A stretch of 38,111 nucleotides of DNA from Altererythrobacter sp. (GTDB lineage: Bacteria; Pseudomonadota; Alphaproteobacteria; Sphingomonadales; Sphingomonadaceae): the NCBI GenBank assembly GCA_029265155.1, contig JAJUJV010000008.1:1-38111 (forward strand), written 5' to 3'. Both the position numbers and the translations under genes were made by a program. Numbering within the stretch: position 1 is the stretch's first letter; each line of letters starts with the position of its first letter. Shown piece after piece: positions 5,402 to 24,409 of the stretch. The notes beneath the pieces were generated by a model that saw only the letters and a list, made by a program, of their open reading frames with translations, had not been told where the DNA came from and did not search any database.

Positions 5402-5534
5402 CGCTTGCCCCTCTCGTATCGTCGCTGCCTTTAGACCGCGTTGCCGCCATGCTGACAAGCGGCTTGCCCGCTGCTTCATCTGGTCCAATAATCCTTTAGC
5501 AACCGGGCCGCCAAGATGCCCGGACGAGGGACGG

Positions 5535-6512
5535 ATGGCCGACATGAGGATGAAGATGCTTTTCGCCGCCGCCTTCGCGATTGCGGTGCCCACCGGGACG
5601 CAAGCGCAGGACTGCAACCGCGAATGCCTGATCAAGATGGCTGACGACTATGCCGCCGCGCTCGTCGCCAAGGATCCGTCGCGAGTGCCGCTGGCCAGCG
5701 ATGTGGTGACGGTCGAGAACCTGAAGCGGATAGGCCAGGATGAAGGGCTTTGGAGCAACGCCACCGGCGGCGTGACCGAATTCCGTATCCCGGTGCCCGA
5801 CCCGGTTTCGCAGCAGGTCGGGTTGATGGCGATGATGGAAGTAGACGGCGAGCCGGCGCTCGTCGGTATCCGCCTGAAGCGCGAGAACGGACGGATCGTC
5901 GAGGCCGAGCATATCATCGCCGGCGACCTCAGCGAGCCGCAGCTCAACAACCTGCGCGCGGTGCGCCCGGCCCTGCTGCGCGAGGTGTCCGAGCCTTACG
6001 CCGATGCGCGCGGGCGGCTGATCCACATCGGCATGAGCTATTACGATGCGCTCGACCTCGGCAACGGAGCGATGACGCCATTCTCCGACGATTGCGTGCG
6101 GCACGAGAACGGCTTCCAGACTTCCCGCAATGCCTTCAACCAGCCGGCAGGACCGGCGGGGGGCCAGTCCGATCCGGTGTTCGCCTATCTCGGCGGGCTC
6201 GGCTGCGAAGCGCAGATGAACACCAACATGTGGGAGTATATCGACACCATCGATAACCGCCGCGTCGAGATCGCCGACACCGTAACCGGCCTGGTCTGGG
6301 GCATGAGCCACTTCCGCCACGACATGAAGGAGGATCGCTACAAGTTGATCGGGGTGCCCGGTGCGGACCACCGAGTGATTCGCGCCTCGACCGGTGCCGG
6401 GTTCGATATGCCGGCGATCCACATCTACAAGGTCTGGGGCGGCGAGATGCACGAGATCGAGGCGGTCGGTGTGGTTCTGCCGTATATGTCGCCCACCGGC
6501 TGGGAGGAGTAG
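5535..6512 (+). CDS. Secreted protein of unknown function
   Basis: 325 residues from ATG 5535 (GAGG at 5525-5528 upstream), giving a signal peptide M-A-D-M-R-M-K-M-L-F-A-A-A-F... cleaved probably after TQA; ATG 5550 is an alternative start. The mature part has an early Cys pair ('DCNRECLIKMADDYAAALVAKD') and an NTF2-like beginning (a helix followed by 'DPSRVPLASDVVTVENL'), then repeats that helix-plus-pocket logic at 'YADARGRLIHIGMSYYDALDLG' with 'FSDDCVRHENGFQTS'. I read it as a likely double SnoaL-like fold, without a reaction. It is divergent from the tannase gene across a 133-base gap; this adjacency suggests co-function on ester substrates, but that is inference only. Confidence 0.7.
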   Translation: MADMRMKMLFAAAFAIAVPTGTQAQDCNRECLIKMADDYAAALVAKDPSRVPLASDVVTVENLKRIGQDEGLWSNATGGVTEFRIPVPDPVSQQVGLMAMMEVDGEPALVGIRLKRENGRIVEAEHIIAGDLSEPQLNNLRAVRPALLREVSEPYADARGRLIHIGMSYYDALDLGNGAMTPFSDDCVRHENGFQTSRNAFNQPAGPAGGQSDPVFAYLGGLGCEAQMNTNMWEYIDTIDNRRVEIADTVTGLVWGMSHFRHDMKEDRYKLIGVPGADHRVIRASTGAGFDMPAIHIYKVWGGEMHEIEAVGVVLPYMSPTGWEE

Positions 6513-10310: not shown

Positions 10311-10937
10311 TCAGGCCTTCCAGCCCCAGGCGAGCAGGCACGGCGGGACGTTCATCCAGGTCATGCCGGTTTCGACCCGTTCAAAGTACCGCGCGGTCAG
10401 GTCGCGGGCGACGGTGCTGAACTGGTAGGTCAGGAACGCGCCACCGGGCCGGATCACCCGGTGCGTTGCTGCCACAATGGCGGGACCTACCCCTTCTGGC
10501 AAAGTCGAGAACGGCAGCCCCGACAGCACGTAGTCCGCCTTCTCGTGGCCGAGCGAGCGGACGATGTCCTCGACATCCTCCGCCGAACCCAGCACCGCGT
10601 GGAACCGGCTGTCGCGGATCGTCCGCTTCAGGTAGTCGATGAACAGCGGGTTGGTGTCGATCACCACCAGTTCGCCATCACGCGGCAACCGATCGAGCAC
10701 CGGGCGGCAGAACGTGCCGACGCCCGGGCCGTATTCGACGAAGAGCTTGCACTCGTTCCAGTTCACCGGCCCTAGCATCTTCTCGATCGTCGAGCGCGAC
10801 GACGGGATGATCGAACCGACCATCCGCGGGTGCTCGACGAACCCCCGGAAGAACACGCCGGCGGGGCCAAGAGTCTGCGAGACTCGGCGCATCAAACCTG
10901 CGCCCCGGCGTTCCCCGGCCAACTCGCTGCCATCCAT
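10311..10937 (-). CDS. Class I SAM-dependent methyltransferase (PmtA / phospholipid N-methyltransferase-like)
   Basis: 208 residues. Motif I is 'CKLFVEYGPGVGTFCRPVL' (E-x-G-P-G-x-G-x), followed by the acidic motif II 'GELVVIDTNPLFIDYLKR', 'FHAVLGSAEDVEDIV' and motif IV 'ADYVLSGLPFSTLPEGV' (the S-G-L-P-F segment is characteristic of PmtA-like and rRNA dimethylase-like enzymes). The beginning 'FFRGFVEHPRMVGSIIPSSR' also matches this family, which includes phosphatidylethanolamine N-methyltransferases. It ends in a short aromatic tail 'NVPPCLLAWGWKA', perhaps membrane-interacting. A lipid substrate is the best guess. ATG 10892 (MRRVSQTLG) is an alternative start; neither start has a strong ribosome binding site. 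Confidence 0.78.
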   Translation of the reverse strand: MDGSELAGERRGAGLMRRVSQTLGPAGVFFRGFVEHPRMVGSIIPSSRSTIEKMLGPVNWNECKLFVEYGPGVGTFCRPVLDRLPRDGELVVIDTNPLFIDYLKRTIRDSRFHAVLGSAEDVEDIVRSLGHEKADYVLSGLPFSTLPEGVGPAIVAATHRVIRPGGAFLTYQFSTVARDLTARYFERVETGMTWMNVPPCLLAWGWKA

Positions 10938-11056
10938 GCTGTGGAACGTGCCCCTTTCGCTGTGCGGGCATTAGGGCTTTGCCCGCGGACAAGGCGCCCG
11001 ACTGGCAAATCTGCCCCGGCAATGCAAGCGTAGCCGTGAACGGCTCATCGCTCATC

Positions 11057-11401
11057 TCACAGAATTTCGTCCACCTTTTCGGCCGGCCGGCAGAGCCGAA
11101 CACCCTTTTCGGTCTCGACCAGCGGCCGTTCGATCAGCCGCGGTTCGGCCGCCATCGCTTCGAGCACTTCGTCATCACTGGCCGAAGGCAAGCCTCGATC
11201 TTCCGCATCGGTGCCACGCAGCCGCAGCCCCTGGACCGGCGTGATGCCGGCATCGCGATAGAGCTGCGCCAGCTTGTCGCGCGAGGGCGGGTCCTTCAGG
11301 TACTCGACCACTTCGAGCTCGACATCGTCCCGCTCCTGCAACTGCGCCAGCACCTTGCGCGAGGTACCGCAGTTGGAGTTGTGCCAGATCGTCGCTTTCA
11401 T
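11057..11401 (-). CDS. arsC: ArsC family glutaredoxin-type reductase (arsenate reductase-like)
   Basis: 114 residues. 'MKATIWHNSNCGTSRKVLAQ' contains the catalytic Cys11 in the H-N-x-x-C-G-T-S-R loop of glutaredoxin-dependent arsenate reductases. 'LEVVEYLKDPPSRDKLAQLY' and the later 'EPRLIERPLVETEKGVRLCRP' provide the conserved K/E-Y-L and R-P arginines that bind the oxyanion. No arsenite exporter or ArsR regulator is nearby, and the gene sits 10 bases downstream of a 2Fe-2S subunit gene, so arsenic resistance is not certain; YffB/Spx-like redox roles occur in this superfamily. ATG 11401 is the family-typical start. Confidence 0.87.
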   Translation of the reverse strand: MKATIWHNSNCGTSRKVLAQLQERDDVELEVVEYLKDPPSRDKLAQLYRDAGITPVQGLRLRGTDAEDRGLPSASDDEVLEAMAAEPRLIERPLVETEKGVRLCRPAEKVDEIL

Positions 11402-11948: not shown

Positions 11949-12154
11949 GCCGGTGCGTAGCTTTCCAGATAGCCGCAGCGAGCGCAGCGCCAGGTTTCGA
12001 TCGGGAGACGCCTCAGCCCTTTGAAGTCGATCCCCCACCACTTACGTCGGGGGGCGCCTTCAACCCAGGTTTCGACATTGGTCGAGTAATCCTTGGCCTC
12101 TGGAACAAAACCCTGTTCCATGCGCCCCGCACACTTGGGGCAAGACTTGCTCAT
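11945..12154 (-). CDS. Small zinc-ribbon protein of unknown function
   Basis: 69 residues from ATG 12154. Two CxxC knuckles, 'SCPKCAGRMEQGFVP' at the N-terminus and 'WRCARCGYLESYA' at the C-terminus, should bind one zinc. The middle ('TWVEGAPRRKWWGIDFKG') is basic and aromatic. This matches small PF-type zinc-ribbon proteins with 'C-P-x-C-x-x-x-M-x-x-G' starts, whose function is not established. It is locked between the aldolase and the 2Fe-2S subunit by ATGA overlaps on both sides, which makes co-translation and a joint role plausible. The ORF-track start at 12196 lies inside the aldolase and is not preferred. Confidence 0.78.
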   Translation of the reverse strand: MSKSCPKCAGRMEQGFVPEAKDYSTNVETWVEGAPRRKWWGIDFKGLRRLPIETWRCARCGYLESYAPA

Positions 12155-12906
12155 TCGCGCCAGCTCCGGTCGACTGTGTCCAGCTTGCGCACCCACGCCT
12201 CGAAATCAGCGCGGCCGAAGTCCTTGAGCGCCACCTCGTCCCGGTCGCGCTGGTGCACCGCGATCACTTCCGGCGACACACGGATGGGTTTTCCCAGCGC
12301 CGCTGTCTTGACCTGAATCTCGCAGGCCCGCTGCAGCATGTAGTAGTTGAAGAACATCTCGTAGAGCGTTTCGCCCAGGACCACCGGCCCGTGGTTGCGC
12401 AGCATCAGCACCCGCCTGTCGCCGAGGTTCTTCAGCAGCCGCTCGCCTTCCTCGGCGCGCACGGTGATGCCCTCGAAATCGTGATAGCCGACCTGTCCTT
12501 CGAAGAAGCAGGCATAGAAGTTCGTCGGCGTCAGGCCGTGCTCGCTCGAACAGACCGCCATCGTATCGGGCGTATGCGTATGGACGATGGCGTGCGCCCA
12601 ATCGAGTTGGCGGTGGAACAAGCCATGCTGCGTGAAGCCCGCTTTGTTCACCGGATGGGGGCTGCCGCACAGCTTGTTGCCCTCGCTATCGATCTTGACC
12701 AGATTGCTCGCGCAGACCTCGTTCCACAGCAGCCCGTACGGGTTGATGAGGAATGCCTCCTCCCCGGGGACGCGCAAGGTGATGTGGTTGTAGATCGATT
12801 CCGACCAGCCGAGCATGTCGAAGATCCGGTAACATGCCGCCAGTTCCTGCCGCGCGGTCCACTCCGCATCGCTGCACTCGACATGCCGCCTGAGCTGGGT
12901 TGCCAT
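12151..12906 (-). CDS. Class II aldolase/adducin domain protein
   Basis: 251 residues from ATG 12906, for which AGAGGAG lies 7 bases upstream; ATG 12912 is too close to that site. The class II aldolase fold is shown by 'YNHITLRVPGEEAFLINPYG', the first zinc ligands in 'AHAIVHTHTPDTMAVCSSEH' (H-T-H), and the third ligand in 'VLMLRNHGPVVLGETLYEMF' (R-N-H-G). The family splits or decarboxylates hydroxy/keto compounds, classically L-fuculose 1-phosphate; proteobacterial adducin-like members often have non-sugar substrates. It begins a coupled minus-strand unit (aldolase, zinc ribbon, 2Fe-2S subunit, ArsC) divergent from the catabolic cluster at 13207, which suggests a shared substrate (inference). 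Confidence 0.86.
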   Translation of the reverse strand: MATQLRRHVECSDAEWTARQELAACYRIFDMLGWSESIYNHITLRVPGEEAFLINPYGLLWNEVCASNLVKIDSEGNKLCGSPHPVNKAGFTQHGLFHRQLDWAHAIVHTHTPDTMAVCSSEHGLTPTNFYACFFEGQVGYHDFEGITVRAEEGERLLKNLGDRRVLMLRNHGPVVLGETLYEMFFNYYMLQRACEIQVKTAALGKPIRVSPEVIAVHQRDRDEVALKDFGRADFEAWVRKLDTVDRSWRE

Positions 12907-12957
12907 GATCATGCTCCTCTCGGTCGCGGGCTTACCTGAAAAGCTGATCGAATCCAT

Positions 12958-13206
12958 AGTCCGGTCCGCCCTCGGCTTGCGGAAGATTACTAAGATTACG
13001 CCCTCCCGCGCTTAGGTCGCTCTGTGCGGGTGCTTGCTTGAGAGAATTTGAGAACGGCTACCCATGAGACCGTTCAACTAACCTATTCGGTGTTTTTTTG
13101 CAAGGTGCTCCTATCCTCGATGCGCGCCTTCGCAACCAATTGACATTGTCCCCGCGATTGGCGAGCCATGACACAGACGTCGCGGCAAGCGACGCGGGGA
13201 GAGGAT
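12958..13206. promoter_or_regulatory. Divergent intergenic control region of the catabolic cluster
   Basis: About 300 bases separate the aldolase start from the VOC gene start. It contains the 8-mer AAGATTAC twice with one base between copies (12983-12990, 12992-12999), and a perfect inverted repeat GAACGG-N12-CCGTTC (13052-13075). A TTGACA hexamer lies at 13140-13145, but the sequence 17 bases on (GAGCCA) is not a recognisable -10. AT content is locally higher than around it (TGTTTTTTTGC at 13091). These are candidate binding sites for the cluster's AraC regulator or another factor; none is proven. A clear ribosome site GGGGAGAGG precedes ATG 13207. Confidence 0.4.
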
Positions 13207-13752
13207 ATGGCAGCAGAGCTCGGCTACGGGCAGCCGATGGGCGGTGTCGCCCAGACGGCTTTCGTCGTCCCTGACCTTCACGCGGCGATCAACCGCTGGG
13301 TCGCGGACATGCGGGCCGGTCCGTTCTTCGTGCTGCCCAACTTCCTCGTGCCGGGACAGACCTACCGCGGCGAGGAATCGCGCGCCGACATCACCATCGC
13401 GATGGGCTTTGCCGGACACATGCTGATCGAGCTGATCCAGCCGCTCGACAGCGAACCTTCGGTCTACCAGGAAACCATCGCGCTGCGCGGTTACGGCTTC
13501 CACCATGTCGGCATCGCCTGCGCCGACGTCGATGCCGACAGCCGGGCGTACCAGGCGCGCGGTTATCACGAAGCGTTTCGCGCCTCGGTCCCGACCGGCG
13601 GAGAGGTCGTGTATCTCGACAACGGCACCGGCGCGCAGCTCGGCTTCATCGAGCTGCTGCCGGTCACTCCCGGCATGGATCAGACCTTCACCCGTTTCTG
13701 GGAGGCGTCCCTCGGCTGGGACGGCGCCGATCCCGTTCGCTCCTTCCTCTGA
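13207..13752 (+). CDS. VOC (glyoxalase-like) family protein
   Basis: 181 residues from ATG 13207 with GGGGAGAGG just upstream (ORF-track start 13168 rejected). Two beta-alpha-beta-beta-beta modules are visible. The first is 'VAQTAFVVPDLHAAINRWVA' with 'ADITIAMGFAGHMLIELIQP'. The second is 'YGFHHVGIACADVDADSRAY' with 'VVYLDNGTGAQLGFIELLPV'. His in 'GFHHVGI' and Glu in 'IELI'/'FIELL' are likely metal ligands, whereas the usual first-strand His is replaced by Gln/Thr ('QTAFVV'). Close relatives in the superfamily are methylmalonyl-CoA epimerase, glyoxalase and extradiol dioxygenases. First gene of the plus-strand catabolic cluster; it may act on the same substrate as the cupins downstream. Confidence 0.8.
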   Translation: MAAELGYGQPMGGVAQTAFVVPDLHAAINRWVADMRAGPFFVLPNFLVPGQTYRGEESRADITIAMGFAGHMLIELIQPLDSEPSVYQETIALRGYGFHHVGIACADVDADSRAYQARGYHEAFRASVPTGGEVVYLDNGTGAQLGFIELLPVTPGMDQTFTRFWEASLGWDGADPVRSFL

Positions 13753-13765
13753 AAGACCCGAGCCG

Positions 13766-15067
13766 ATGGCCATCACTTCGGAAACCGAAATCCTCGCCCG
13801 CCAGGATCAGCCGACCGGGAACTGGTCGAAAAATTCACCGGGCTACCAGACCCTGCTGGTATTCCTGCTCAGCCTCAATTTCGGGATCGTGTTCTTCGAC
13901 CGGCAGGCGCTCAACGTGCTCATCCCGATGGGGGTCGAAGCCGATCTGCAACTGTCGCAGACCCAGATCGGACTTCTCGCATCGGGCCTCAGCTTTAGCT
14001 GGGCCATCGCTGCCTTTTTCGTCGGGCGGCTGTCGGACTCGCTTGGCAAGCGAAAGCTGCTGCTGATCATCGCCACGATCGCCTTTTCGCTGTGTTCGTT
14101 CCTGTCGGGACTGGCCACCAGCTTCCTGTTCCTGTTCGCCGCGCGTCTGCTGATGGGCGCGGCGGAAGGCGGCGTGATGCCGATCAGCCACGCCATGGTG
14201 GCAAGCGAGGTCGATCCCAACCGCCGCGGCCTTGCGCAAGGCGTGGCTCAAAACCTCGGCTCGAACCTCCTCGGCAGCTTCCTCGCCCCGGTGGTGCTGG
14301 TAGCCTTCGCCACGGCGTTCAGTTGGCGCGAGGCATTCTACCTGGCGGCAGTACCCGGCATCGTTAGCGCCGCTCTGATCTGGTTCCTGCTCAAGGAACC
14401 GGAGCCGGTGAAAATCGCGGGAACCGAAAAGTCGATCTCGATCCGGGAGGCGCTGAAAGAGCGCAACATGTGGATTTGCGTGGTCGTCGGCGTGCTGATG
14501 GTGGCCCACTTCGTCATCACCTGGGCGTTTATGCCGTTCTATCTCGTAGAGGGCAAAGGCATCGACACCTCCACGATGAGCTGGCTGATGGGCGCGCTCG
14601 GGATCGCGGCGTCGATCTACAGCTTCGTCGTGTCCGGCATTTCGGATTACATTGGCCGCAAGCCGGTGATGGTGGCGCTTCCGTTCCTATCGGTCCTCGG
14701 TCCGCTCGGGGCGTTCTACTTCGAAGGCTCGGCCATGGTCCTGGCGGCGATCTTCTTTGTCGGCTGGGCGGTTAACGGCACGTTCCCGATCTTCATGGCC
14801 ACGATTCCATCGGAAACGTTTAAGCCCATCCATCACGCCACCGTCCTGGGCCTGGCGATGGGTTCGTGCGAAATCCTGGGTGGTGTGTTCGGGCCGCCGA
14901 TCGCGGGCATGCTCAACGACGCTTTCGGGATCGACGCTTTCCTCTACGTCCTGATGGTCCTCGCCGTGATCAGCGGGTTCGTTTCGATGGGATTGCGCGA
15001 GACTGCGCCCGTCGCGCTGGCGCGGCGTGCCGCAAATTCGGCTCCAGCAAAAGGGCATGCCTTCTAG
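13766..15067 (+). CDS. MFS transporter (inner-membrane substrate importer, probable)
   Basis: 433 residues, twelve predicted membrane segments in two six-helix halves. The loop 2-3 MFS signature is 'FFVGRLSDSLGKRKLLL' (G-x-x-x-D-x-x-G-x-R/K) with a second copy 'VSGISDYIGRKPVMVALP' in the other half. 'FGIVFFDRQALNVLIP' in helix 1 is typical of the ACS / spinster-like carriers of organic acids. The central loop carries charged 'LKEPEPVKIAGTEKSISIRE'. It starts 13 bases after the VOC gene stop and precedes an AraC regulator by 11 bases, so the three are probably one transcript. With the TonB-dependent receptor it would provide outer- and inner-membrane passage of one substrate. Confidence 0.87.
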   Translation: MAITSETEILARQDQPTGNWSKNSPGYQTLLVFLLSLNFGIVFFDRQALNVLIPMGVEADLQLSQTQIGLLASGLSFSWAIAAFFVGRLSDSLGKRKLLLIIATIAFSLCSFLSGLATSFLFLFAARLLMGAAEGGVMPISHAMVASEVDPNRRGLAQGVAQNLGSNLLGSFLAPVVLVAFATAFSWREAFYLAAVPGIVSAALIWFLLKEPEPVKIAGTEKSISIREALKERNMWICVVVGVLMVAHFVITWAFMPFYLVEGKGIDTSTMSWLMGALGIAASIYSFVVSGISDYIGRKPVMVALPFLSVLGPLGAFYFEGSAMVLAAIFFVGWAVNGTFPIFMATIPSETFKPIHHATVLGLAMGSCEILGGVFGPPIAGMLNDAFGIDAFLYVLMVLAVISGFVSMGLRETAPVALARRAANSAPAKGHAF

Positions 15068-15078
15068 GGGACAGTCCG

Positions 15079-16020
15079 ATGGGTGTGGTCGCAAAGTTCG
15101 CAACGGCCGGTATCGCCCCCGCGGAACGCTTGCGTTACTGGAATTCGGTCGCCGACGAGGTGTTCTGCGGAACTTTCGTGAATGCCGAGAGCGAGCGGTT
15201 CGAAGGCGAGATGTGGAGCTGGCGGCTGGGCGACTTGGACATGATCCGGACGCGCTCGGTGCAGGCTGCCGTGGGGCGGCGGCCGCTCAACACCCACGAA
15301 GAGCGCGTGATCATGCACATGCAGTGGCGCGGTCAGGGCGAGCACCGTCAGGGCCGGCAGGAGGCGCGACTGGGGCCGGGCGACTTCATCTTCGGGTCGC
15401 CGCACGAGCCCTATGCCTTCAATCTCGCACCGCATGAGATGATGGTAGTCGAGTTTCCACGGCGGGCGCTTGTGGAGCGCGTGCCCGATTTGGACGACTT
15501 GCTTGCCAAGCCGCTCTCCGGCTCGACGTCGGCCGCGCGGGTCTTCAGCGACTTCCTGCTCTCGCTCTGGCGCCAGGCGCGCGATGGAGAAGGCGAGGAT
15601 ACGGCCTGGGGCGAAGGAATGAGCCGCATCTTCTACGACCTCGCCGCGATGGCCGTCCACGAGGCGAAACGCGTATCTTCGAGCCACGCCGCGCCCGAAT
15701 TGCAGCGCCGCGCGTTGGCGTTGATCGACACTCACCTGGCCGATCCGGATTTGCGATCCGCTTCCATGGCCTCCGAACTCGGAACGTCGGTCCGCACCGT
15801 GCAGAACCTGTTCGCGGAGTTGGGCAAGACGCCGACCACGGCCATTCTCGAACGGCGCCTGGAGCGTGCAGCGGACAGGCTGATCGCCGATCCGCAGGCA
15901 ACGATCACCCACGTTGCCTTCGCGCACGGGTTCAACGACAGCGCCTACTTCTCCCGCTGCTTCCGGCAGAAATTCGGCGTGTCGCCACGCGAGTGGCGTC
16001 GCGGCAACAGTCACTGCTGA
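15079..16020 (+). CDS. AraC-family transcriptional regulator
   Basis: 313 residues from ATG 15079 (AGGGGA upstream; the ORF-track start at 14866 lies inside the MFS gene). The N-terminal two-thirds resemble the AraC-binding-like sensor domain (beta-rich, 'RYWNSVADEVFCGTFVNAES', 'LGPGDFIFGSPHEPYAF'). The C-terminal 100 residues are the double helix-turn-helix: 'LADPDLRSASMASELGTSVR' with 'TVQNLFAELGKTPT', then 'ATITHVAFAHGFNDSAYFSR' and 'CFRQKFGVSPREWRR', the classic F-x-R-x-F-x-x-x-x-G-x-S-P signature. It is most likely the substrate-responsive activator of the cluster, placed between the transporter and the receptor gene. Confidence 0.9.
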   Translation: MGVVAKFATAGIAPAERLRYWNSVADEVFCGTFVNAESERFEGEMWSWRLGDLDMIRTRSVQAAVGRRPLNTHEERVIMHMQWRGQGEHRQGRQEARLGPGDFIFGSPHEPYAFNLAPHEMMVVEFPRRALVERVPDLDDLLAKPLSGSTSAARVFSDFLLSLWRQARDGEGEDTAWGEGMSRIFYDLAAMAVHEAKRVSSSHAAPELQRRALALIDTHLADPDLRSASMASELGTSVRTVQNLFAELGKTPTTAILERRLERAADRLIADPQATITHVAFAHGFNDSAYFSRCFRQKFGVSPREWRRGNSHC

Positions 16021-16177: not shown

Positions 16178-18682
16178 ATGAGAGTGACGCAGGTTTCACT
16201 TGCCGCTTTGGCATGTGCTCTGGCCACGCCGGCCGTCGCACAGGATCAAAACCCCAGCACCGCGACGACCGGCGGCATCCAGGAGATTGTCGTAACCGCG
16301 CAGAAGCGCGCCGAGGACGTGCAGGACGTACCGATCGCAATCAGCGCGTTCAACGCCGAGGCGCTGCAGGAACGCGCGGTCGGCAACATCTCGGCCCTTT
16401 CGGGCATTACTCCGAACGTCACCCTCGACGCCTCGACGCCCTTCTCCGGATCGAGCGCCGTGCTCGGCGCGACGATCCGCGGCATCGGATCGAGTGACTT
16501 CGCGTTCAACATCGACCCGGCGGTCGGCGTCTACCTCGATGGGGTCTATCTCGGCCGCTCGATCGGGGCGAACCAGGACCTGCTCGACGTCGAGCGCATC
16601 GAGGTGCTGAAGGGCCCGCAAGGCACGCTGTTTGGACGCAATACGATCGGCGGCGCAATCTCGATCGTCACCCGCACCCCCGGCGACGAGTTCCGCGTCA
16701 CCGGCGACGTGACCGTCGGCAGCTACGACCGCATGCAGGTCCGCGGCATGATCGAGCTGCCGATCGCGGAGGGTCTCTCGAGCTCGCTCGCGTTCGGCAT
16801 GCTCGACCGCAAAGGTTATCAGAAGCGAGTGGCCTACCCCGGCGATGCCGGCGACTACGATTCGTGGGAGCTGTTCCCGGCTGCCGGCTATGAGAACGCC
16901 GCTCGCCAGGGCGGCGACGATTCGTGGAACCTGCGCGGCAAGCTGCGCTGGGATGACGGCGGCGCGTTCCGCGCCACCGTGACCGGGGACTTCAGTAAAA
17001 TAGATCAGGATTCGACCGCCAACACCGTGGTCGACATCCTCGACGACAATCCCGGCGCGTTCTTCGCCTTCCTCTACAACACCTGCATCAGCTCGACCCC
17101 CGCGGAGATCGCCGCCAGCCCGGTGGGCGACCTCACCAACGTCTGCGGCCCGCGCAGCAGCACCGCCGGCTACAACACGATTCCGGGCCTCGCGAGCCGC
17201 AACGTCGACGCCGATCCGCTCAACGATGTCGCCCCGCTCGACGACCGCTGGGTCAACCAGGACATCGACACGAGCTGGGCGACGGGCAACAACTTCTCGA
17301 AGCTCGACCAAGGCGGCGTCGCCCTCGACCTCGAGCTCGATATCAGCCCCGACGTGATGGTCAGATCGATCTCCTCGTACCGCAAGATCGACTTCGCCGC
17401 GGGCGTGGATCTCGACAACTCGCCGATGCCGATCCTGCAGACCAGCTTCACGGTCGACCAGGAGCAGTGGAGCCAGGAACTCCAGCTGACCGGCTCGGCG
17501 CTCGACGACGCTCTCAATTTCGTCGTCGGTGGCTATGTCTTCAACGAGAAGGGCGACTTGCGCGATTTCGTCACTTTCGCCGGAGGCCTGCTGCAGGTGG
17601 ACGGTCCCGGAACGATCGACACCACGGCCTACGCCGCATTCGGCCAGGTCGACTGGCGCGTGCACGACTTCGTCGGCTTCACGCTCGGCGGCCGCTACAC
17701 CAAGGAAGACAAGAGCTACGTAGGGGCCCAGTCGGACGTCAACGGCTTCAACTACAAGCTCGCCGGCTGCATGGATCTCGATCCTGCCACGGGCAATCCC
17801 AGCGCGGCCTGCGCCGAGGCGATCGGCTTCCCGATCCCGAGCGAGCCGTTCCGCTACTATCCGCTCGAGCCGAACGAGCAGGAGTTCGACAACTTCTCGT
17901 TCAAGGCGGGTGTGCAGCTCTATCCGACCGACGACGTGATGATCTACGGCTCGTTCAGCCAGGGCTACAAGACCGGCGGCTGGACCACCCGCCTGTCGAA
18001 CCCGCTGCCGGTCGCCCCGACCTTCGGCGAAGAAGAGGCCGAGACCTGGGAAGTGGGCGTGAAGTCGACGCTGATCGACCGCCGCCTGCAACTCAACGCC
18101 GCCGCCTTCTCGACGAAGTATGAAGGCATCCAGCTCAACTTCCAGGAAGGCGTCTCGCCGACCGTGAAGAATGCCGGCGACGCCCGCATCAAGGGCTTCG
18201 AGATCGAAGCCCAGGCCGCCCCCAGCGACTTCTTCACGGTGACCGCCTCGGTAGGCTATCTCGACGCCTACTATACCCGCGTCGATGCTCCGGCGCAGGT
18301 CGCTCCGAGCGATATCCAGCTCGGCGTGTTCGCCGGCGCGGATTTGCCCAAGGCGCCCGACTGGAAGATCAACATCGCGCCGCGGCTCGAAGTGCCGCTC
18401 GCCAGCGGATCGCTGATCGTGCTGGCCGACTGGACCCACACCACCGGGATGCGCAACGACACCGAGGGCACCCGGCTGCTGATGCGGCCGGCCACCGACA
18501 TCATCAACGCCAGCGTCACCTACGAGCCCGACGGCGGCAACTGGAACCTGACGATCGGCGGCACCAACCTGACCGACGACCGTCACATCATCACCGGCCA
18601 AGCCCAGGTGGGTGGCGGCGTCATCTACGGCACTTACAGCCGGCCCACCGAGTGGTATGCTCGGCTCGGTTTTGAATTCTAA
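16178..18682 (+). CDS. TonB-dependent outer-membrane receptor
   Basis: 834 residues. Signal peptide MRVTQVSLAALACALATPAVAQ, then TonB box 'GGIQEIVVTAQKRAEDVQDV'. The plug domain runs to about residue 160 ('LSGITPNVTLDAST', 'IRGIGSSDFAFNIDPAVGVY', 'LDVERIEVLKGPQGTLFGRN'), followed by a 22-strand-type barrel ending in the aromatic C-terminal 'YARLGFEF', as expected for BAM recognition. The IEVVVTAxKR plus VGVYxDGVY pattern is that of the large sphingomonad receptor class associated with catabolic loci rather than siderophore receptors with Fur boxes; the ligand is unknown. GGGAGCGAGACG precedes ATG 16178. The gene is 157 bases downstream of the AraC gene, so it may have its own promoter. Confidence 0.93.
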   Translation: MRVTQVSLAALACALATPAVAQDQNPSTATTGGIQEIVVTAQKRAEDVQDVPIAISAFNAEALQERAVGNISALSGITPNVTLDASTPFSGSSAVLGATIRGIGSSDFAFNIDPAVGVYLDGVYLGRSIGANQDLLDVERIEVLKGPQGTLFGRNTIGGAISIVTRTPGDEFRVTGDVTVGSYDRMQVRGMIELPIAEGLSSSLAFGMLDRKGYQKRVAYPGDAGDYDSWELFPAAGYENAARQGGDDSWNLRGKLRWDDGGAFRATVTGDFSKIDQDSTANTVVDILDDNPGAFFAFLYNTCISSTPAEIAASPVGDLTNVCGPRSSTAGYNTIPGLASRNVDADPLNDVAPLDDRWVNQDIDTSWATGNNFSKLDQGGVALDLELDISPDVMVRSISSYRKIDFAAGVDLDNSPMPILQTSFTVDQEQWSQELQLTGSALDDALNFVVGGYVFNEKGDLRDFVTFAGGLLQVDGPGTIDTTAYAAFGQVDWRVHDFVGFTLGGRYTKEDKSYVGAQSDVNGFNYKLAGCMDLDPATGNPSAACAEAIGFPIPSEPFRYYPLEPNEQEFDNFSFKAGVQLYPTDDVMIYGSFSQGYKTGGWTTRLSNPLPVAPTFGEEEAETWEVGVKSTLIDRRLQLNAAAFSTKYEGIQLNFQEGVSPTVKNAGDARIKGFEIEAQAAPSDFFTVTASVGYLDAYYTRVDAPAQVAPSDIQLGVFAGADLPKAPDWKINIAPRLEVPLASGSLIVLADWTHTTGMRNDTEGTRLLMRPATDIINASVTYEPDGGNWNLTIGGTNLTDDRHIITGQAQVGGGVIYGTYSRPTEWYARLGFEF

Positions 18683-18739: not shown

Positions 18740-19285
18740 ATGCCTGAAGCCCCAACCACCGAACCATGGGCCGGTACGGCGCCGGTTCCGCACGCCTTCC
18801 GTCCCGGGGCCAAGCCCGAAGTCTACATGTCGAAGATCGCCGAGGGCGACGAACGGCTGTGGGTGCCGATCGGACGCCCGCATGTGGAGGACGTGTTCTC
18901 CAAGCCGGTGTGGATCAGCCCAACGCTCAACATGTGGGCGGACGTGCTGATGGCCAAGAAGCCCTGCATCGTGAACCGGCACTATCATCCCAAGCCGATC
19001 TGGGCTTACACGATCAGCGGCAAGTGGGCCTATCTCGAGCACGAGTGGACCGCGACCGCCGGCGACTTCATCTTCGAGACGCCGGGCGAGAGCCACACCC
19101 TCGTTTCGTACGAACACCCCGATCCGATGCGCGTGTTTTTCGTCGTTTCCGGTCCGCTGATGTGGCTCGACGAGCAAGGCAATTCGGTCGGGCACTACGA
19201 CGTCTTCGACTACATGCGCGATGCCCGCGCCCATTACGACGAGGTCGGCATCGGTGCCGACTATGTCGACAGTCTGATCCGCTGA
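18740..19285 (+). CDS. Cupin dioxygenase, 2,4'-dihydroxyacetophenone dioxygenase-like (copy 1)
   Basis: 181 residues with a single cupin barrel. The three His metal ligands of the 2,4'-dihydroxyacetophenone dioxygenase (DAD) family are all visible: H81-x-H83 in 'CIVNRHYHPKPIWAYTISGK' and H119 in 'FETPGESHTLVSYEHPD'. The spacing of 36 residues from second to third His equals that known for DAD (His 78 to His 114). 'GKWAYLEHEWTATAGDFIFE' is the characteristic strand pair. DAD uses Fe and O2 to split the C-C bond between the carbonyl and hydroxymethyl carbons of 4-hydroxyphenacyl alcohol to 4-hydroxybenzoate and formate. Whether this copy does so is inference. It is followed 11 bases later by a paralogue. 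The ribosome site AAGGAGAGG is strong. Confidence 0.83.
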   Translation: MPEAPTTEPWAGTAPVPHAFRPGAKPEVYMSKIAEGDERLWVPIGRPHVEDVFSKPVWISPTLNMWADVLMAKKPCIVNRHYHPKPIWAYTISGKWAYLEHEWTATAGDFIFETPGESHTLVSYEHPDPMRVFFVVSGPLMWLDEQGNSVGHYDVFDYMRDARAHYDEVGIGADYVDSLIR

Positions 19286-19296
19286 GAGGAAATACC

Positions 19297-19836
19297 ATGG
19301 CCACGCAGATGAAAGCCCCGCCGTCGAACAAGAAGGAAATCGTCGACGTTCCATTCAACTACCGCCACCTGGTCGAGAAGCGCTCGCCCGGGGGTCGCTA
19401 TGTCGATGCGCAGACGGACGTCGACAGCCCATGGGTGCCGTTCGGCCCGACGGCAGCGATCAAGCACCTGGCGTTCGACGTGCGCCGCAACCTGTTCTCG
19501 AACATCCTGTGGGTGAAGGGGCCTGGCGTCATCGGCACCCACTTCCACCGCGGCACGATCACCATGATCGTGCTCGAAGGCAGCGTCCGCTATCTCGAGT
19601 ACGACTGGGTCGCGACGCCCGGCGGCCTGATCCTGGAGGTTCCGGGCGAGAGCCACACGCTGGTGACCGAGCATCCCGACGGCGTGAAGCTGTTCGGCTG
19701 GATGGAAGGGCCGATCGAGTTCTACGACGAGAACGCCGTCCTGGTGGAAACCGCCGACGTGTGGTGGATGATGAACCACTACGAAAGCTACTGCCAGGAG
19801 CAGGGCATCCCGATCAACGAGAAGCTCTATCTGTAA
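19297..19836 (+). CDS. Cupin dioxygenase, 2,4'-dihydroxyacetophenone dioxygenase-like (copy 2)
   Basis: 179 residues, paralogous to the preceding gene. H82-x-H84 in 'GPGVIGTHFHRGTITMIVLE' and H120 in 'LEVPGESHTLVTEHPDG' reproduce the complete three-His iron site with the same 36-residue spacing. 'GSVRYLEYDWVATPGGLILE' corresponds to 'GKWAYLEHEWTATAGDFIFE' of copy 1. The N-terminal 50 residues and the C-terminal tail differ between the copies, so they are diverged duplicates, not a recent copy. Both keep the metal ligands, so either both are catalytic on different substrates or they form a hetero-oligomer. AGAGGAAATACC precedes the ATG. Confidence 0.83.
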   Translation: MATQMKAPPSNKKEIVDVPFNYRHLVEKRSPGGRYVDAQTDVDSPWVPFGPTAAIKHLAFDVRRNLFSNILWVKGPGVIGTHFHRGTITMIVLEGSVRYLEYDWVATPGGLILEVPGESHTLVTEHPDGVKLFGWMEGPIEFYDENAVLVETADVWWMMNHYESYCQEQGIPINEKLYL

Positions 19837-19867
19837 GTGGCGAGATGCTGCGGCTTTAACCCCATTC

Positions 19868-19955
19868 TTCGTCATTCCCGCACAGGCGGGAACCCAGTCT
19901 ACCCTGGCGCGACCATCAGACGCTACTGGGTCCCTGCTTGCGCGGGGATGACGAA
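19868..19955. repeat. Dispersed inverted repeat (MITE-like / REP-like), complete copy
   Basis: 88 bases with terminal inverted repeats TTCGTCAT / ATGACGAA. The two subterminal arms are CCCGCACAGGCGGGAACCCA and TGGGTCCCTGCTTGCGCGGG. Each arm itself contains a small hairpin (CCCGCxxxxGCGGG). It fills the gap between the second cupin and the SDR gene. Such elements are common between genes of sphingomonads and are read in shadow ORFs as 'VPACAGMT'. It may act as a transcript-stabilising or terminating structure within the operon. Confidence 0.8.
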
Positions 19956-19980
19956 GTTGGGGGCATAATAAGGGAAGAAG

Positions 19981-20829
19981 ATGCAAGGCCCCAAGACCCT
20001 CGACCAGTTCGACATCCGCGGCCGTTCGGCGCTGGTCACCGGCGCGGCGAGCGGGATCGGCCTCGCTTACGCCGAGTGCATGGCCGAGGCCGGGGCGCGG
20101 GTGACGCTGACCGACATCGATGCCGAAGGCGCGGCGCGCGAGGCGCAGCGGCTGTCCGACGAAGGCTACGAAGTGCGCTGGACCACCTGCGACGTCAGCG
20201 ACCTGACGCAGGTCGCGCGTGCCTTCGACGATCACGTGCGGGCCTATGGCGGCTGCGACATCGCGTTCGCCAATGCCGGGCTCGATGTCGGCAATGGTTT
20301 CTGGACGCCCGAAGGCACGCGCAATCCGGAGGGGCAGATCGACGTCTACGATCCGCAGCGCTGGTACAAGTCGATCGGCGTCAATCTCAACGGCGTGTTC
20401 CACACGGTGCGCGAAGCGGCGCGGGTGATGAAGGCCAACAAAGAACGTCGGGGTGGCTCGATCGTCATCACCAGCTCGAACGCTGCCGAAGTGAACGAGG
20501 CGATCGTCGGGGTGCCTTACATGGCGGCCAAGGCCGGCGTGAAGCACTTCATGCGCCACGCGGCGTATGAGCTCGCCGCCTTCGGCATCCGGGTCAACGC
20601 GATCGCGCCGGGTCCTTTCGTCACGAACATCGGCGACGGCTGGGTCAAGAAGAACCCCGCCGCCAAGGCCACCTGGGACGAGCTGGTTCCGGTCGGGCGC
20701 ATGGCGGAGACTTACCAGATCAAGCCGCTTGCCCTACTCCTTGCCAGTGATGCCGGCAGCTACATGACCGGCGCGCACGTGATGATCGACGGCGGGATGC
20801 AGCTCGGCCCCGTCAAGCCACTGGACTGA
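19981..20829 (+). CDS. SDR family oxidoreductase
   Basis: 282 residues. Classical short-chain dehydrogenase: the cofactor motif is 'SALVTGAASGIGLAYAECMA' (TGxxxGIG), an acidic residue after strand 2 ('VTLTDIDAEGA') points to NAD, and 'IAFANAGLDVG' is the NAG motif. Catalytic Ser is in 'IVITSSNAAEV' and the Tyr/Lys pair in 'GVPYMAAKAGVKHF'. 'NAIAPGPFVTNI' is the PG motif. The C-terminal 'MTGAHVMIDGGMQLGP' completes the fold. Likely oxidises a secondary alcohol or reduces a ketone of the cluster substrate. AGGGAAGAAG precedes ATG 19981, and the next gene begins 3 bases after the stop. Relative to plain SDRs there is an insertion around 'FWTPEGTRNPEGQIDVYDPQ', suggestive of a specialised substrate pocket. 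Confidence 0.88.
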   Translation: MQGPKTLDQFDIRGRSALVTGAASGIGLAYAECMAEAGARVTLTDIDAEGAAREAQRLSDEGYEVRWTTCDVSDLTQVARAFDDHVRAYGGCDIAFANAGLDVGNGFWTPEGTRNPEGQIDVYDPQRWYKSIGVNLNGVFHTVREAARVMKANKERRGGSIVITSSNAAEVNEAIVGVPYMAAKAGVKHFMRHAAYELAAFGIRVNAIAPGPFVTNIGDGWVKKNPAAKATWDELVPVGRMAETYQIKPLALLLASDAGSYMTGAHVMIDGGMQLGPVKPLD

Positions 20830-20832
20830 ACG

Positions 20833-21951
20833 ATGACAACTCAAGCTCAAGCCGCCATCTGCTACGGTAACGACCGCCCCTTCACCATCGAGCCGGTCGA
20901 ATTGGCCGACCTCAAGCCCGACGAGTTGCTGGTGCGGGTGGTCGCTTGCGGCATATGCCATACCGACCTTGCCGTCCGCGACGCGCAGTTGCCGGTGCCG
21001 CTGCCGGTAGTGCTCGGCCACGAAGGCGCCGGCATCGTCGAAGCGGTCGGAAATGCCGTGACGGTAGCCAAACCCGGCGACCGGGTGGTGATGAGCTTCA
21101 ACTCGTGCGGCGACTGCCCGAGTTGCGCCGTCGATGCACCGACTTACTGCTACAACTTCTATCCGCACAACTGGTCGGGCCGGCGCGCGGATGGCACGCC
21201 CAGCATGATGCGCGGCGGCGAGCCGATGAACGCCAACTTCTTCGGCCAGTCGTCATTCGCCACTCATGCCATCGCGCATGAACTCAACGTCGTGCGGGTG
21301 CCCGACAGCGCGGCGCAGGTCCCGCTCGAGAGGCTGGCGCCGATCGGTTGCGGCCTGATGACCGGCGCCGGCGCGGTGCTGCGCAGCATGAAGGTGCGCG
21401 CAGGACTGCCGATCGCAGTGTTCGGCACCGGAACGGTCGGCATGGCCGCGATCATGGCCGCGAAGATTGCCGGTGCGGACCCGATCATCGCCGTCGACGT
21501 CAACGACGAGCGCCTCGCTTTGGCGCGAGACCTGGGCGCGACGCACGCCTTCAACGGCCGCGACGATGCGCCTGCCAAAATTCGCGAGCTATGCCCGGGA
21601 GGCCTCGGCTACGTGTTCGACACCACCGGTATCAACACGGTGATCGAGCAAGCGTGGGATCTCCTGGCGCCGAAGGGCATCTGCGGCATCGTCGGTGCAT
21701 CCGATCCGGCCGACAACCTGACGTTCAACGAAGCGGCGTTCATGGCCGGGGGCCGTACCGTGATGGGCATCCTCGGCGGCGACAGCGATGTGGGCCCATT
21801 CCTCTGTGAGCTGATCGAGCACCACCTGGCCGGCCGCTTCCCCTACGAAGCGCTTATCGAAACCTTCTCGTTCGAACAGATCAACGAGGCTATCGCGGCC
21901 AGCGAGAGCGGCCGCGTGGTCAAGCCGGTGCTGGTGATCGGCACGGAGTGA
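20833..21951 (+). CDS. Zinc-dependent alcohol dehydrogenase (aryl/benzyl alcohol dehydrogenase-like)
   Basis: 372 residues of the medium-chain family. Catalytic zinc ligands are Cys in 'ACGICHTDLAVRD', His in 'LGHEGAGIVEAVG' and Cys in 'PIGCGLMTGAGAVL'. The structural zinc set is 'SCGDCPSCAVDAPTYC'. 'VFGTGTVGMAAIMAAKIAGA' followed by 'IIAVDVNDERL' is the NAD-binding Rossmann motif with Asp (NAD preference). 'CGLMTGAGAV' is typical of benzyl-alcohol dehydrogenases such as XylB. It would oxidise a primary or aryl alcohol to an aldehyde. The gene begins 3 bases after the SDR stop and precedes a second alcohol dehydrogenase by 4 bases. Confidence 0.88.
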   Translation: MTTQAQAAICYGNDRPFTIEPVELADLKPDELLVRVVACGICHTDLAVRDAQLPVPLPVVLGHEGAGIVEAVGNAVTVAKPGDRVVMSFNSCGDCPSCAVDAPTYCYNFYPHNWSGRRADGTPSMMRGGEPMNANFFGQSSFATHAIAHELNVVRVPDSAAQVPLERLAPIGCGLMTGAGAVLRSMKVRAGLPIAVFGTGTVGMAAIMAAKIAGADPIIAVDVNDERLALARDLGATHAFNGRDDAPAKIRELCPGGLGYVFDTTGINTVIEQAWDLLAPKGICGIVGASDPADNLTFNEAAFMAGGRTVMGILGGDSDVGPFLCELIEHHLAGRFPYEALIETFSFEQINEAIAASESGRVVKPVLVIGTE

Positions 21952-21955
21952 TGCC

Positions 21956-22957
21956 GTGAAAGCCGTCACCTTCCAGGCCCTGCACACGCCGCTCGCATAC
22001 GAGAGCCTGCCTGATCCAACGCCGGCTGCGGATCAGGTCGTGATCAAGGTCGGTCGCTGCGGCATCTGCGGCAGCGACCTGCACATGACCGAGGATGCGA
22101 CTTACGGTTGCCAGCACGGCGACGTGCTCGGGCACGAGTTCGCAGGCGAAGTGGTCGCGCTCGGCCGCGAGGCTGAAGGCCTGAAATCCGGCGATCTCGT
22201 CTCAGTCATCCCGCTGATGAGCTGCGGTCACTGCGAGCACTGCCGGAAGGGCGAGGTACAGTGGTGCTCCGACTTCGGCCTGCAGGGCGGCGGCTATGCC
22301 GAGTACGCGCTGACGCGGCCCAACCAGTGCATCCGCCTGCCGCAAGATGTCAGCCTGGCCGATGGCGCGATCATCGAGCCGCTGGCGGTTGCGCTCCACG
22401 GGGTGAACCTCTCCGGCATGCAACCCGGCGACAAAGTGCTCGTCCTCGGTGCGGGTCCGATCGGGCTCGCCGTCGCCTTCTGGGCTCGCCGCTTCGGGGC
22501 TTCCAAAGTCGCGGTGCAGGACGTTGCCGAGTTCCAGCGCCAACGGGCGCTCGGCATGGGCGCCGACGTCTTCGTGGTCGACCCGCAGGACCCGATCGGC
22601 AGCGCCGAAGCGGGGCTCGGCGGCAAAGCGGACGTGGTGTTCGAGTGCGTCGGCATTCCGGGCCTGATCGACCAGGCCGTGCAGCAGGTCCGCAATCGCG
22701 GCACAATCTTGCTGCTCGGCCTCTGCACCCGGCCCGATCCGATCAACAGCTTCGCGATGCTGCAGAAGGAAGCGCGGCTGGTGACCAGCGCGTTCTTCAC
22801 GCGCCAGGAGTACGAAGCGGCGCTCGACGCGCTGGCGCAGGGGGCAATGGAGCCGCGGCTGCTTGTCACCGACACCATCTCACTGGCCGATACACCCGAG
22901 GTGTTCGAAAGCCTCAAGCGCCGGACCAGCCAGTGCAAGGTGCTGATCGCGCCTTAG
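21956..22957 (+). CDS. Zinc-binding medium-chain dehydrogenase (threonine/sorbitol dehydrogenase-like)
   Basis: 333 residues starting at GTG 21956. GGAG lies 7 bases upstream, inside the end of the previous gene, while the nearby ATG 21951 hits a stop at once. Catalytic zinc: 'GRCGICGSDLHMTED' and 'VLGHEFAGEVVALG', with Glu in 'IIEPLAVALHGVN'. The structural zinc set is 'SCGHCEHCRKGEVQWC'. Rossmann motif 'VLVLGAGPIGLAVAFWAR'. The CGSD + EPLAV pattern places it with polyol / L-threonine / 2,3-butanediol-type dehydrogenases rather than with the benzyl-alcohol type next door, so the two dehydrogenases probably act on different hydroxyls. The stop overlaps the convergent ModE-like gene by 4 bases, ending the cluster. 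Confidence 0.87.
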   Translation: MKAVTFQALHTPLAYESLPDPTPAADQVVIKVGRCGICGSDLHMTEDATYGCQHGDVLGHEFAGEVVALGREAEGLKSGDLVSVIPLMSCGHCEHCRKGEVQWCSDFGLQGGGYAEYALTRPNQCIRLPQDVSLADGAIIEPLAVALHGVNLSGMQPGDKVLVLGAGPIGLAVAFWARRFGASKVAVQDVAEFQRQRALGMGADVFVVDPQDPIGSAEAGLGGKADVVFECVGIPGLIDQAVQQVRNRGTILLLGLCTRPDPINSFAMLQKEARLVTSAFFTRQEYEAALDALAQGAMEPRLLVTDTISLADTPEVFESLKRRTSQCKVLIAP

Positions 22958-23331: not shown

Positions 23332-24126
23332 TCAGGACAGCGGGCGGCTGGAACCGAAGAACAGCGCCTGGCTAATCGCCGCGCGGACCGTGTCTTCCTG
23401 GAATGGCTTGGTGATCAGGTATGTCGGCTCCGGCCGGTCGCCTGTGAGCAGCCGCTCCGGATAAGCCGTGATGAAGATCACCGGCACGCTGTCGATGGCG
23501 AGGATGTCATCGACCGCGTCAAGCCCGGACGAGCCATCGGCCAGCTGGATGTCGGCCAGCACCAGGCCCGGGGTCTTCTCGGCGACGACCTGCTGGGCCT
23601 GGGTGCGCGTCGCGGCGGTGCCGCAGATCTCGTGGCCAAGCGAACGCACCAGATCCTCGAGCTGCATCGAGATCAGCGGCTCGTCCTCGATGATCAGGAC
23701 GCTGGTGGAGGACTCACGCTCGATCTCCTCGACCGCTTCGGTGACGAGCCGGTTCACGTCGTCCTCGTCCATGTCCATGATCCGCGCCGCTTCGGCGGGC
23801 GAGAAATCTTCGACGGTGGTGAGGAGCAAGGCTTGCCGGTTGACGGGCGTGATGCGGCGCAGATGATCCTGCGCGGCCGCTTCGTGCAAGCCGAAGGTCT
23901 CGGGCTCGTCCGCCACTTCCATGTAGGCGCTCGACCAGACCTTGTTGAAGGCGCGGTACAGCGGCACGCGGCCGCCGCGCAGGGAGGTAGCGAGTTCCTG
24001 ATCGGCTAGCGCCGCTTCCAGCGTGGCTTTGACGAAAGCATCGCCGGTCGACTGCGAACCCGTCAGGGCACGCGCATAGCGGCGGAGAAACGGCAGATGA
24101 GCGGCGACTTCGGCCCCAATAGACAT
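23332..24126 (-). CDS. phyR: PhyR, general stress response regulator (sigma-factor-like domain + receiver)
   Basis: 264 residues from ATG 24126 (GGAAGGGG just upstream; longer ORF-track start rejected). Residues 1-135 form an ECF sigma-factor mimic ('HLPFLRRYARALTGSQSTGD', region-4-like 'LTTVEDFSPAEAARIMDMDE'). Residues 140-264 are a receiver with acidic pocket 'SVLIIEDEPLISMQLEDLVR', phosphoacceptor Asp192 in 'LVLADIQLADGSSGLDAV', Thr220 in 'VIFITAYPERLL' and Lys240 in 'YLITKPFQEDTV'. Known mechanism: phosphorylated PhyR sequesters NepR and frees EcfG. Neither nepR nor ecfG is recognisable in the window. A perfect EcfG-type promoter lies just upstream, so positive autoregulation is expected. 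Confidence 0.94.
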   Translation of the reverse strand: MSIGAEVAAHLPFLRRYARALTGSQSTGDAFVKATLEAALADQELATSLRGGRVPLYRAFNKVWSSAYMEVADEPETFGLHEAAAQDHLRRITPVNRQALLLTTVEDFSPAEAARIMDMDEDDVNRLVTEAVEEIERESSTSVLIIEDEPLISMQLEDLVRSLGHEICGTAATRTQAQQVVAEKTPGLVLADIQLADGSSGLDAVDDILAIDSVPVIFITAYPERLLTGDRPEPTYLITKPFQEDTVRAAISQALFFGSSRPLS

Positions 24127-24154
24127 AAAACCCCTTCCCGAGGACAACGGGGCA

Positions 24155-24181
24155 TCAACGTGCGCGGGCGAGTCTGGTTCC
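24155..24181 (-). promoter_or_regulatory. EcfG-type promoter of phyR (GGAAC-N16-CGTTGA)
   Basis: On the minus strand: GGAAC (24181-24177), a 16-base spacer, CGTTGA (24160-24155). This is an exact match to the alphaproteobacterial general-stress sigma consensus GGAAC-N16/17-CGTT. Predicted start of transcription near 24147 leaves a leader of about 20 bases containing the ribosome site. Confidence 0.85.
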
Positions 24182-24288
24182 GCAAGGCCTGCACGCCGCG
24201 CAGCCCCTTCATGTTGTTCAGCAAATGGCCGTCCCGGGCACGGTAAGCAAGCACCTTCACCCCTCGCAAAAAAAATCTTCACGCGCGG

Positions 24289-24315
24289 GGAACACTTAAG
24301 CGGGCGGCTCATTGA
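24289..24315 (+). promoter_or_regulatory. EcfG-like promoter of the candidate sRNA (GGAAC-N16-CATTGA)
   Basis: Plus strand GGAAC (24289-24293), a 16-base spacer, CATTGA (24310-24315): one mismatch from CGTTGA. It points away from phyR, toward the hairpin and terminator at 24324-24409, with no open reading frame downstream that could be its target. Confidence 0.55.
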
Positions 24316-24320
24316 GAGGT

Positions 24321-24409
24321 TGTCACCGCCGAGACCCCCCCTCCCGTCCAAGCGGCTGGTGATACGATCCCGAAAGGCCTCCACTCAGGAATGAGTGGAG
24401 GCCTTTTTT
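24321..24409 (+). ncRNA. Candidate small RNA with GsrN-like architecture
   Basis: About 89 bases. Predicted start 6-8 bases after the EcfG-like -10. The 5' hairpin pairs CACCGCCG (24324-24331) with CGGCTGGTG (24353-24361) with a single bulge and presents a 21-base loop containing CCCCCCCTCCCGTCC. A short linker leads to an 11-bp perfect terminator stem and six T. A 5' hairpin with a C-rich loop followed by an intrinsic terminator, under general-stress sigma control, is the known plan of GsrN in Caulobacter. The C-rich loop could pair with purine-rich ribosome binding sites, including that of phyR itself (9 of 10 pairs with CGGGAAGGGG). Homology to GsrN is inferred from architecture and locus only; no alignment was made. 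Confidence 0.6.
24376..24409 (+). terminator. Strong intrinsic terminator
   Basis: GGCCTCCACTC - AGGAAT - GAGTGGAGGCC, an 11-bp perfect stem extended by AAA/TTT, followed by TTTTTTC on the plus strand. Read on the minus strand it is followed only by TTTCGGG, so it mainly ends plus-strand transcription; it might also serve the response-regulator gene from the other side. Confidence 0.85.

Follow-up and report, generated by a model that had tools for sequence, protein, structure and literature searches.

The window, a stretch of 38,111 nucleotides on one Altererythrobacter sp. contig, carries two adjacent cupin genes, here called A and B, whose products resemble 2,4'-dihydroxyacetophenone dioxygenase (DAD), the enzyme that converts 2,4'-dihydroxyacetophenone to 4-hydroxybenzoate and formate. 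With moderate confidence, we propose that A and B are distinct dioxygenases with the DAD fold and a mononuclear Fe(II) centre, that each is likely homo-oligomeric, and that they would work in parallel on different aryl ketols within one catabolic operon (Table 1). The probable reaction of each is side-chain cleavage of an aromatic ketone from plant material.

Table 1. Features at the cupin locus, in window positions
Feature	Positions	Strand	Length	Metal ligands	Basis or remark
Tannase/feruloyl-esterase-family protein	3812-5635	-			PF07519
Class II aldolase-family gene	12151-12957	-			
VOC/glyoxalase-type protein	13168-13752	+			PF13669
MFS transporter	13505-15067 (ORF limits; the start codon probably lies further in)	+			PF07690
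AraC-family regulator	14866-16020 (ORF limits; the start codon probably lies further in)	+			PF12833, PF14525
TonB-dependent receptor	16178-18682	+			PF00593, PF07715
Cupin A, DAD-type Fe(II) dioxygenase (predicted)	18740-19285	+	181 aa	His81, His83, His119	4p9g E=2.6e-69; Foldseek TM 0.92, 59% identity; pocket residues
Cupin B, DAD-fold dioxygenase (predicted), separate subfamily	19297-19836	+	179 aa	His82, His84, His120	4p9g E=7e-18; model pLDDT 92.4; Foldseek top match DAD; Gly at DAD Phe129 position
Palindromic repeat	19860-19963		39-nt arms		arms 79% complementary
SDR dehydrogenase	19981-20829	+			PF13561
ADH1, zinc alcohol dehydrogenase, benzyl alcohol dehydrogenase relative	20833-21951	+			1f8f E=3.9e-90
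ADH2, zinc dehydrogenase, ketose reductase/(R,R)-butanediol dehydrogenase group	21956-22957	+			
PhyR-type general stress response regulator	23332-24384	-			

Metal sites, pockets and subfamilies of the two cupins

Only 11 bp separate A from B, and a plausible ribosome binding site precedes each gene. The likeness of both proteins to DAD is not due to chance, because each matches the DAD structure 4p9g at a highly significant E value (Table 1). In both, the third metal-binding His follows the HxH pair by 36 residues, equal to the spacing between the iron ligands His76, His78 and His114 of the Alcaligenes enzyme (PMC4219425). The original prediction of adjacent DAD-like cupins with intact three-His sites is borne out, since the three His are invariant in 58 A and 81 B sequences. 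It had also named the spacing as that of DAD; the spacing is indeed present in A, B and DAD, but the uncharacterised cupin 3ebr, whose alignment with A is gap-free across the metal His residues, shares it. We therefore rejected the spacing as a DAD signature, as alone it is not diagnostic. Between A and B, identity is 38% and confined to a 108-aa core, so that the two differ at both ends, as predicted. No curated NCBIfam family covers either protein, and Pfam returned the generic Cupin_7/Cupin_2 domains only.

Pocket positions were mapped to DAD numbering over the 58 A and 81 B sequences and 55 sequences of a third cupin type, B2. None of the three sets shows any variation at the three His, at Tyr93 or at Glu108. 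In DAD, Tyr93 and Glu108 have been assigned roles in the mechanism, and modelling of that enzyme has Trp61 and Asp63 binding the phenol OH and Phe129 stacking on the ring. Like DAD (Alcaligenes sp. 4HAP, PDB 4P9G/5BPX, PMC4219425), to which it is 59% identical in the structural alignment, A retains Trp61, Asp63, Tyr93, Glu108 and Phe129 (58/58 sequences); it differs from DAD at Phe43 and Met156, which are Ile and Asp in A, and by a 4-residue insert ahead of the core. B shares the fold, the three His, Tyr93 and Glu108 with DAD, but in all 81 B sequences Trp61 is replaced by Phe or Tyr (Phe in the window), Asp63 by Asn and Phe129 by Gly, and B also has Phe for Trp137. It seems that B should bind iron, yet act on a substrate different from that of DAD, and this substrate probably needs more room. 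B2 is not in the window (one example is at 10536-11069 of locus L023), has equivalents in 55 loci and is 53-63% identical to B; its pocket signature combines a retained Phe129 with Tyr at position 61, Asn at positions 63 and 135, and His at position 156.

In a quick tree of 70 rows, with SH-aLRT support only, one branch (SH-aLRT 96) unites A with Alcaligenes DAD and the A-type proteins of Agrobacterium, Ensifer, Sulfitobacter and a Pseudomonas plasmid, whereas B and B2 fall outside it. The A model, whose mean pLDDT is only 73.6, superposes on 4p9g at the TM value given in Table 1; the confident B model has DAD as its best structural match (TM 0.82), followed by 3ebr, 3cjx and acetylacetone dioxygenase. 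Judged on their sequences, A and B represent separate subfamilies and not a tandem duplicate, because each of the 81 B sequences carries Gly for Phe129 and has lost the Trp/Asp pair, and because A falls in one clade with DAD. A tandem duplication within this lineage was rejected, as A clusters with Alcaligenes DAD, away from B. Of the earlier view that A and B are old paralogues retained together, the ancient divergence holds, as does a co-retention far above chance, but the tree does not make them sister tandem paralogues.

Distribution of the cupins and the question of a joint oligomer

Our family survey covered 401 genomes of the window's family, of which 36 have a clear A and 46 a clear B. 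No genome had A without B (0/36), but B was found without A in 10 of its 46 genomes, spread over 7 genera. The association of the two gives a Fisher p of ~1e-42 over genomes and ~1e-12 over genera, with relatedness not fully corrected in either value. Within the family the two genes adjoin each other in 31 genomes; in 2 they lie no more than 5 kb apart, and in 3 they are unlinked. Gene order at 80 B-anchored loci was A-B-B2 in 39, A-B in 14, B-B2 in 12, A-B2-B in 4 and B by itself in 11, the last number including some loci cut by contig ends. The cupin set is not fixed at two, and A-B-B2 is the commonest arrangement.

Across the class (a sample of 387 genomes), A-type proteins of 59-62% identity occur without a B match in 4 genomes, which belong to another family, and B-like proteins of 50-51% identity occur without an A match in 2. 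An A-type gene directly adjoins a 2,3-butanediol dehydrogenase gene on an Agrobacterium plasmid and lies near one on a P. aeruginosa plasmid, and on Sulfitobacter and Ensifer plasmids A-type genes accompany a thiamine-pyrophosphate enzyme, an SDR and an aldehyde dehydrogenase; none of these has a B neighbour. Conversely, Pseudosulfitobacter and Sphingobium plasmids carry B-like genes with no A neighbour. Gamma-glutamyltransferase genes were seen near A-type and B-like genes on two Rhodobacterales plasmids (loci L086 and L089).

These distributions bear on the suggestion in the original prediction that A and B together form a hetero-oligomeric enzyme. The close spacing of the two genes, the homologous folds and the presence of B in every A-bearing genome of the family (36/36) all speak for it. 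However, the survey of whether the pair always occurs together came out one-sided: A always has B in the family, but B stands without A in 10 of 46 genomes and each type occurs alone in other families, so that an obligate A/B hetero-oligomer is very unlikely and largely fails the test set for it. The genomes in which A and B are unlinked point the same way, as does the homo-oligomeric state of Alcaligenes DAD (PMC4219425), and several aromatics of the DAD dimer interface, among them Trp53, Tyr85 and Phe105, are retained by A but replaced in B. Coevolution measured by distance matrices was set aside as uninformative on contact, the A-B rank correlation (0.70) not exceeding those of A with MFS (0.82) and of SDR with MFS (0.86).

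Operon context and the proposed side-chain cleavage

Neighbouring genes were tallied at 67 sphingomonad loci, each spanning at least 15 kb. SDR and ADH2 each lie alongside B in 64 of the 67, ADH1 is often missing in relatives, and the lone B-like gene of Pseudosulfitobacter has homologues of SDR (51%) and ADH2 (56%) close by. It looks like B, SDR and ADH2 form the core module. The TonB-dependent receptor tracks A, being present at 41 of 49 A-bearing and 3 of 18 A-less loci, and the AraC regulator is found at 38 of 49 A-bearing loci versus 1 of the 18 with B or B-B2 only. The receptor is the probable route of substrate uptake. Homologues of the VOC/glyoxalase-type protein occur at the cluster in most relatives, and we speculate that this protein could epimerise or isomerise ketols.

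The clusters of relatives also include a Rieske protein that most resembles dicamba O-demethylase, a flavoenzyme closest to the Novosphingobium vanillyl-alcohol oxidase 9FFK and, at loci L088, L015 and L041, a DesA-type O-demethylase. In the B clusters around L015:3362 and L041:3954, all three stand together. The window's operon has neither a Rieske nor a vanillyl-alcohol-oxidase gene; a homologue of the latter (38%) is on another contig of the same genome. That genome, 86.75% complete, encodes two LigM/DesA-type and five LigB-type proteins, and no VanA_C Rieske protein was found in the part assembled. Taken from the neighbours in relatives, the likely substrate class is that of lignin-derived aryl ketones bearing hydroxyl or methoxyl groups, because dehydrogenases are present in the operon, O-demethylases and a vanillyl-alcohol-oxidase homologue accompany it in relatives, and the genome has its own LigM/DesA and LigB types.

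From these data we infer the activity, the substrates, the oligomeric state and the parallel action of A and B as follows. Starting from lignin-type phenols with an alcohol or a vicinal diol in the side chain, SDR, ADH2 and ADH1 would produce alpha-hydroxyketones by oxidation. Next, A would cleave the C-C bond of C2-type ketols (Ar-CO-CH2OH) to Ar-COOH and formate, like DAD, and B would carry out like chemistry on a ketol that takes up more space, such as a C3 phenylpropane ketol, a substrate proposed because the ring-stacking Phe of DAD is Gly in B. The side chain would decide whether A or B makes the cut, and the resulting aromatic acids may pass to O-demethylation by LigM/DesA-type enzymes and to LigB-type ring cleavage; the genes for both steps lie elsewhere in the genome.

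That A is found in the family only where B is present (36/36) counts against parallel action, as two separate enzymes need no such dependence. It would fit A working downstream of B, and an order of cuts, the other option in the original prediction, can be imagined in which one cupin, B or A, opens a longer ketol or diketone and the product, after further steps, becomes the substrate of the other; the three cupins with differing pockets in many relatives also agree with this. But once an aryl ketol has been cut in the manner of DAD, the product is the aromatic acid and no second ketone is left to cleave, A-type proteins exist elsewhere without B, and the two genes are unlinked in 3 genomes, which makes sequential cleavage unlikely. 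B could instead be a related three-His cupin with other chemistry, for instance cleavage of a beta-diketone, the type of substrate used by acetylacetone dioxygenase. The absence from B of the phenol-binding pair and of the ring-stacking Phe would suit such a change, and 3ebr, 3cjx (both uncharacterised) and acetylacetone dioxygenase 3bal are its next folds after DAD. The top structural match of B is nevertheless DAD itself, B shows no variation at the mechanistic residues Tyr93 and Glu108, and its partner dehydrogenases could make ketols; we consider other chemistry in B rather unlikely and prefer the parallel cleavage of different aryl ketols by A and B.

Related systems and further features of the locus

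The operon differs from the DAD case in holding a second cupin, B, which belongs to a separate group, and searches of the open-access literature found no account of DAD-like cupins in pairs or triplets. Of the other structural relatives, 3EBR and 3CJX of Ralstonia eutropha JMP134 have the same fold at ~20-30% identity, with other pockets, and acetylacetone dioxygenase 3BAL, which follows DAD among the structural matches for A as well as for B, has the cupin fold at 16-18% identity.

A system that resembles the present one by description is cluster G-II of Novosphingobium sp. MBES04 (MBENS4_1158-1161), in which a DAD-like gene heads four genes; a lignin dimer induces it ~45-fold, the effector being guaiacylhydroxypropanone, and the three remaining products were termed hypothetical (PMC10866074). 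As here, a DAD-like gene leads a short tandem cluster in a sphingomonad, and G-II could be A-B-B2-Rieske, a likeness drawn from the description and not from sequence. In N. aromaticivorans, the Hibbert ketone G-diketone is metabolised via GP-1/GP-2, the enzyme cleaving the side chain of GP-1/GD was not identified, and the authors pointed to a lack of information on how microbes break down Hibbert ketones (PMC8612281). A conserved operon of two or three predicted iron dioxygenases with different pockets, together with dehydrogenases, is an assayable candidate for this side-chain cleavage, and the O-demethylases beside the operon in relatives add to its candidacy for a step of lignin breakdown that has no identified enzyme. 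More tentatively, and with clearly less confidence than in the parallel action of A and B, B and B2 may be new aryl-ketone-cleaving subfamilies and the A-B(-B2)/SDR/ADH2 set the missing sphingomonad cut of lignin phenylpropanones (Hibbert ketols and diketones).

Some further features lie around the operon. The palindromic repeat is placed between B and SDR, and its core motif has ~10 copies in the genome. The class II aldolase-family gene lies upstream on the opposite strand, with a homologue beside the cluster in many Erythrobacteraceae-type loci, and the PhyR-type regulator is encoded on the opposite strand just downstream of ADH2. The tannase/feruloyl-esterase-family protein would also fit a diet of plant phenols.
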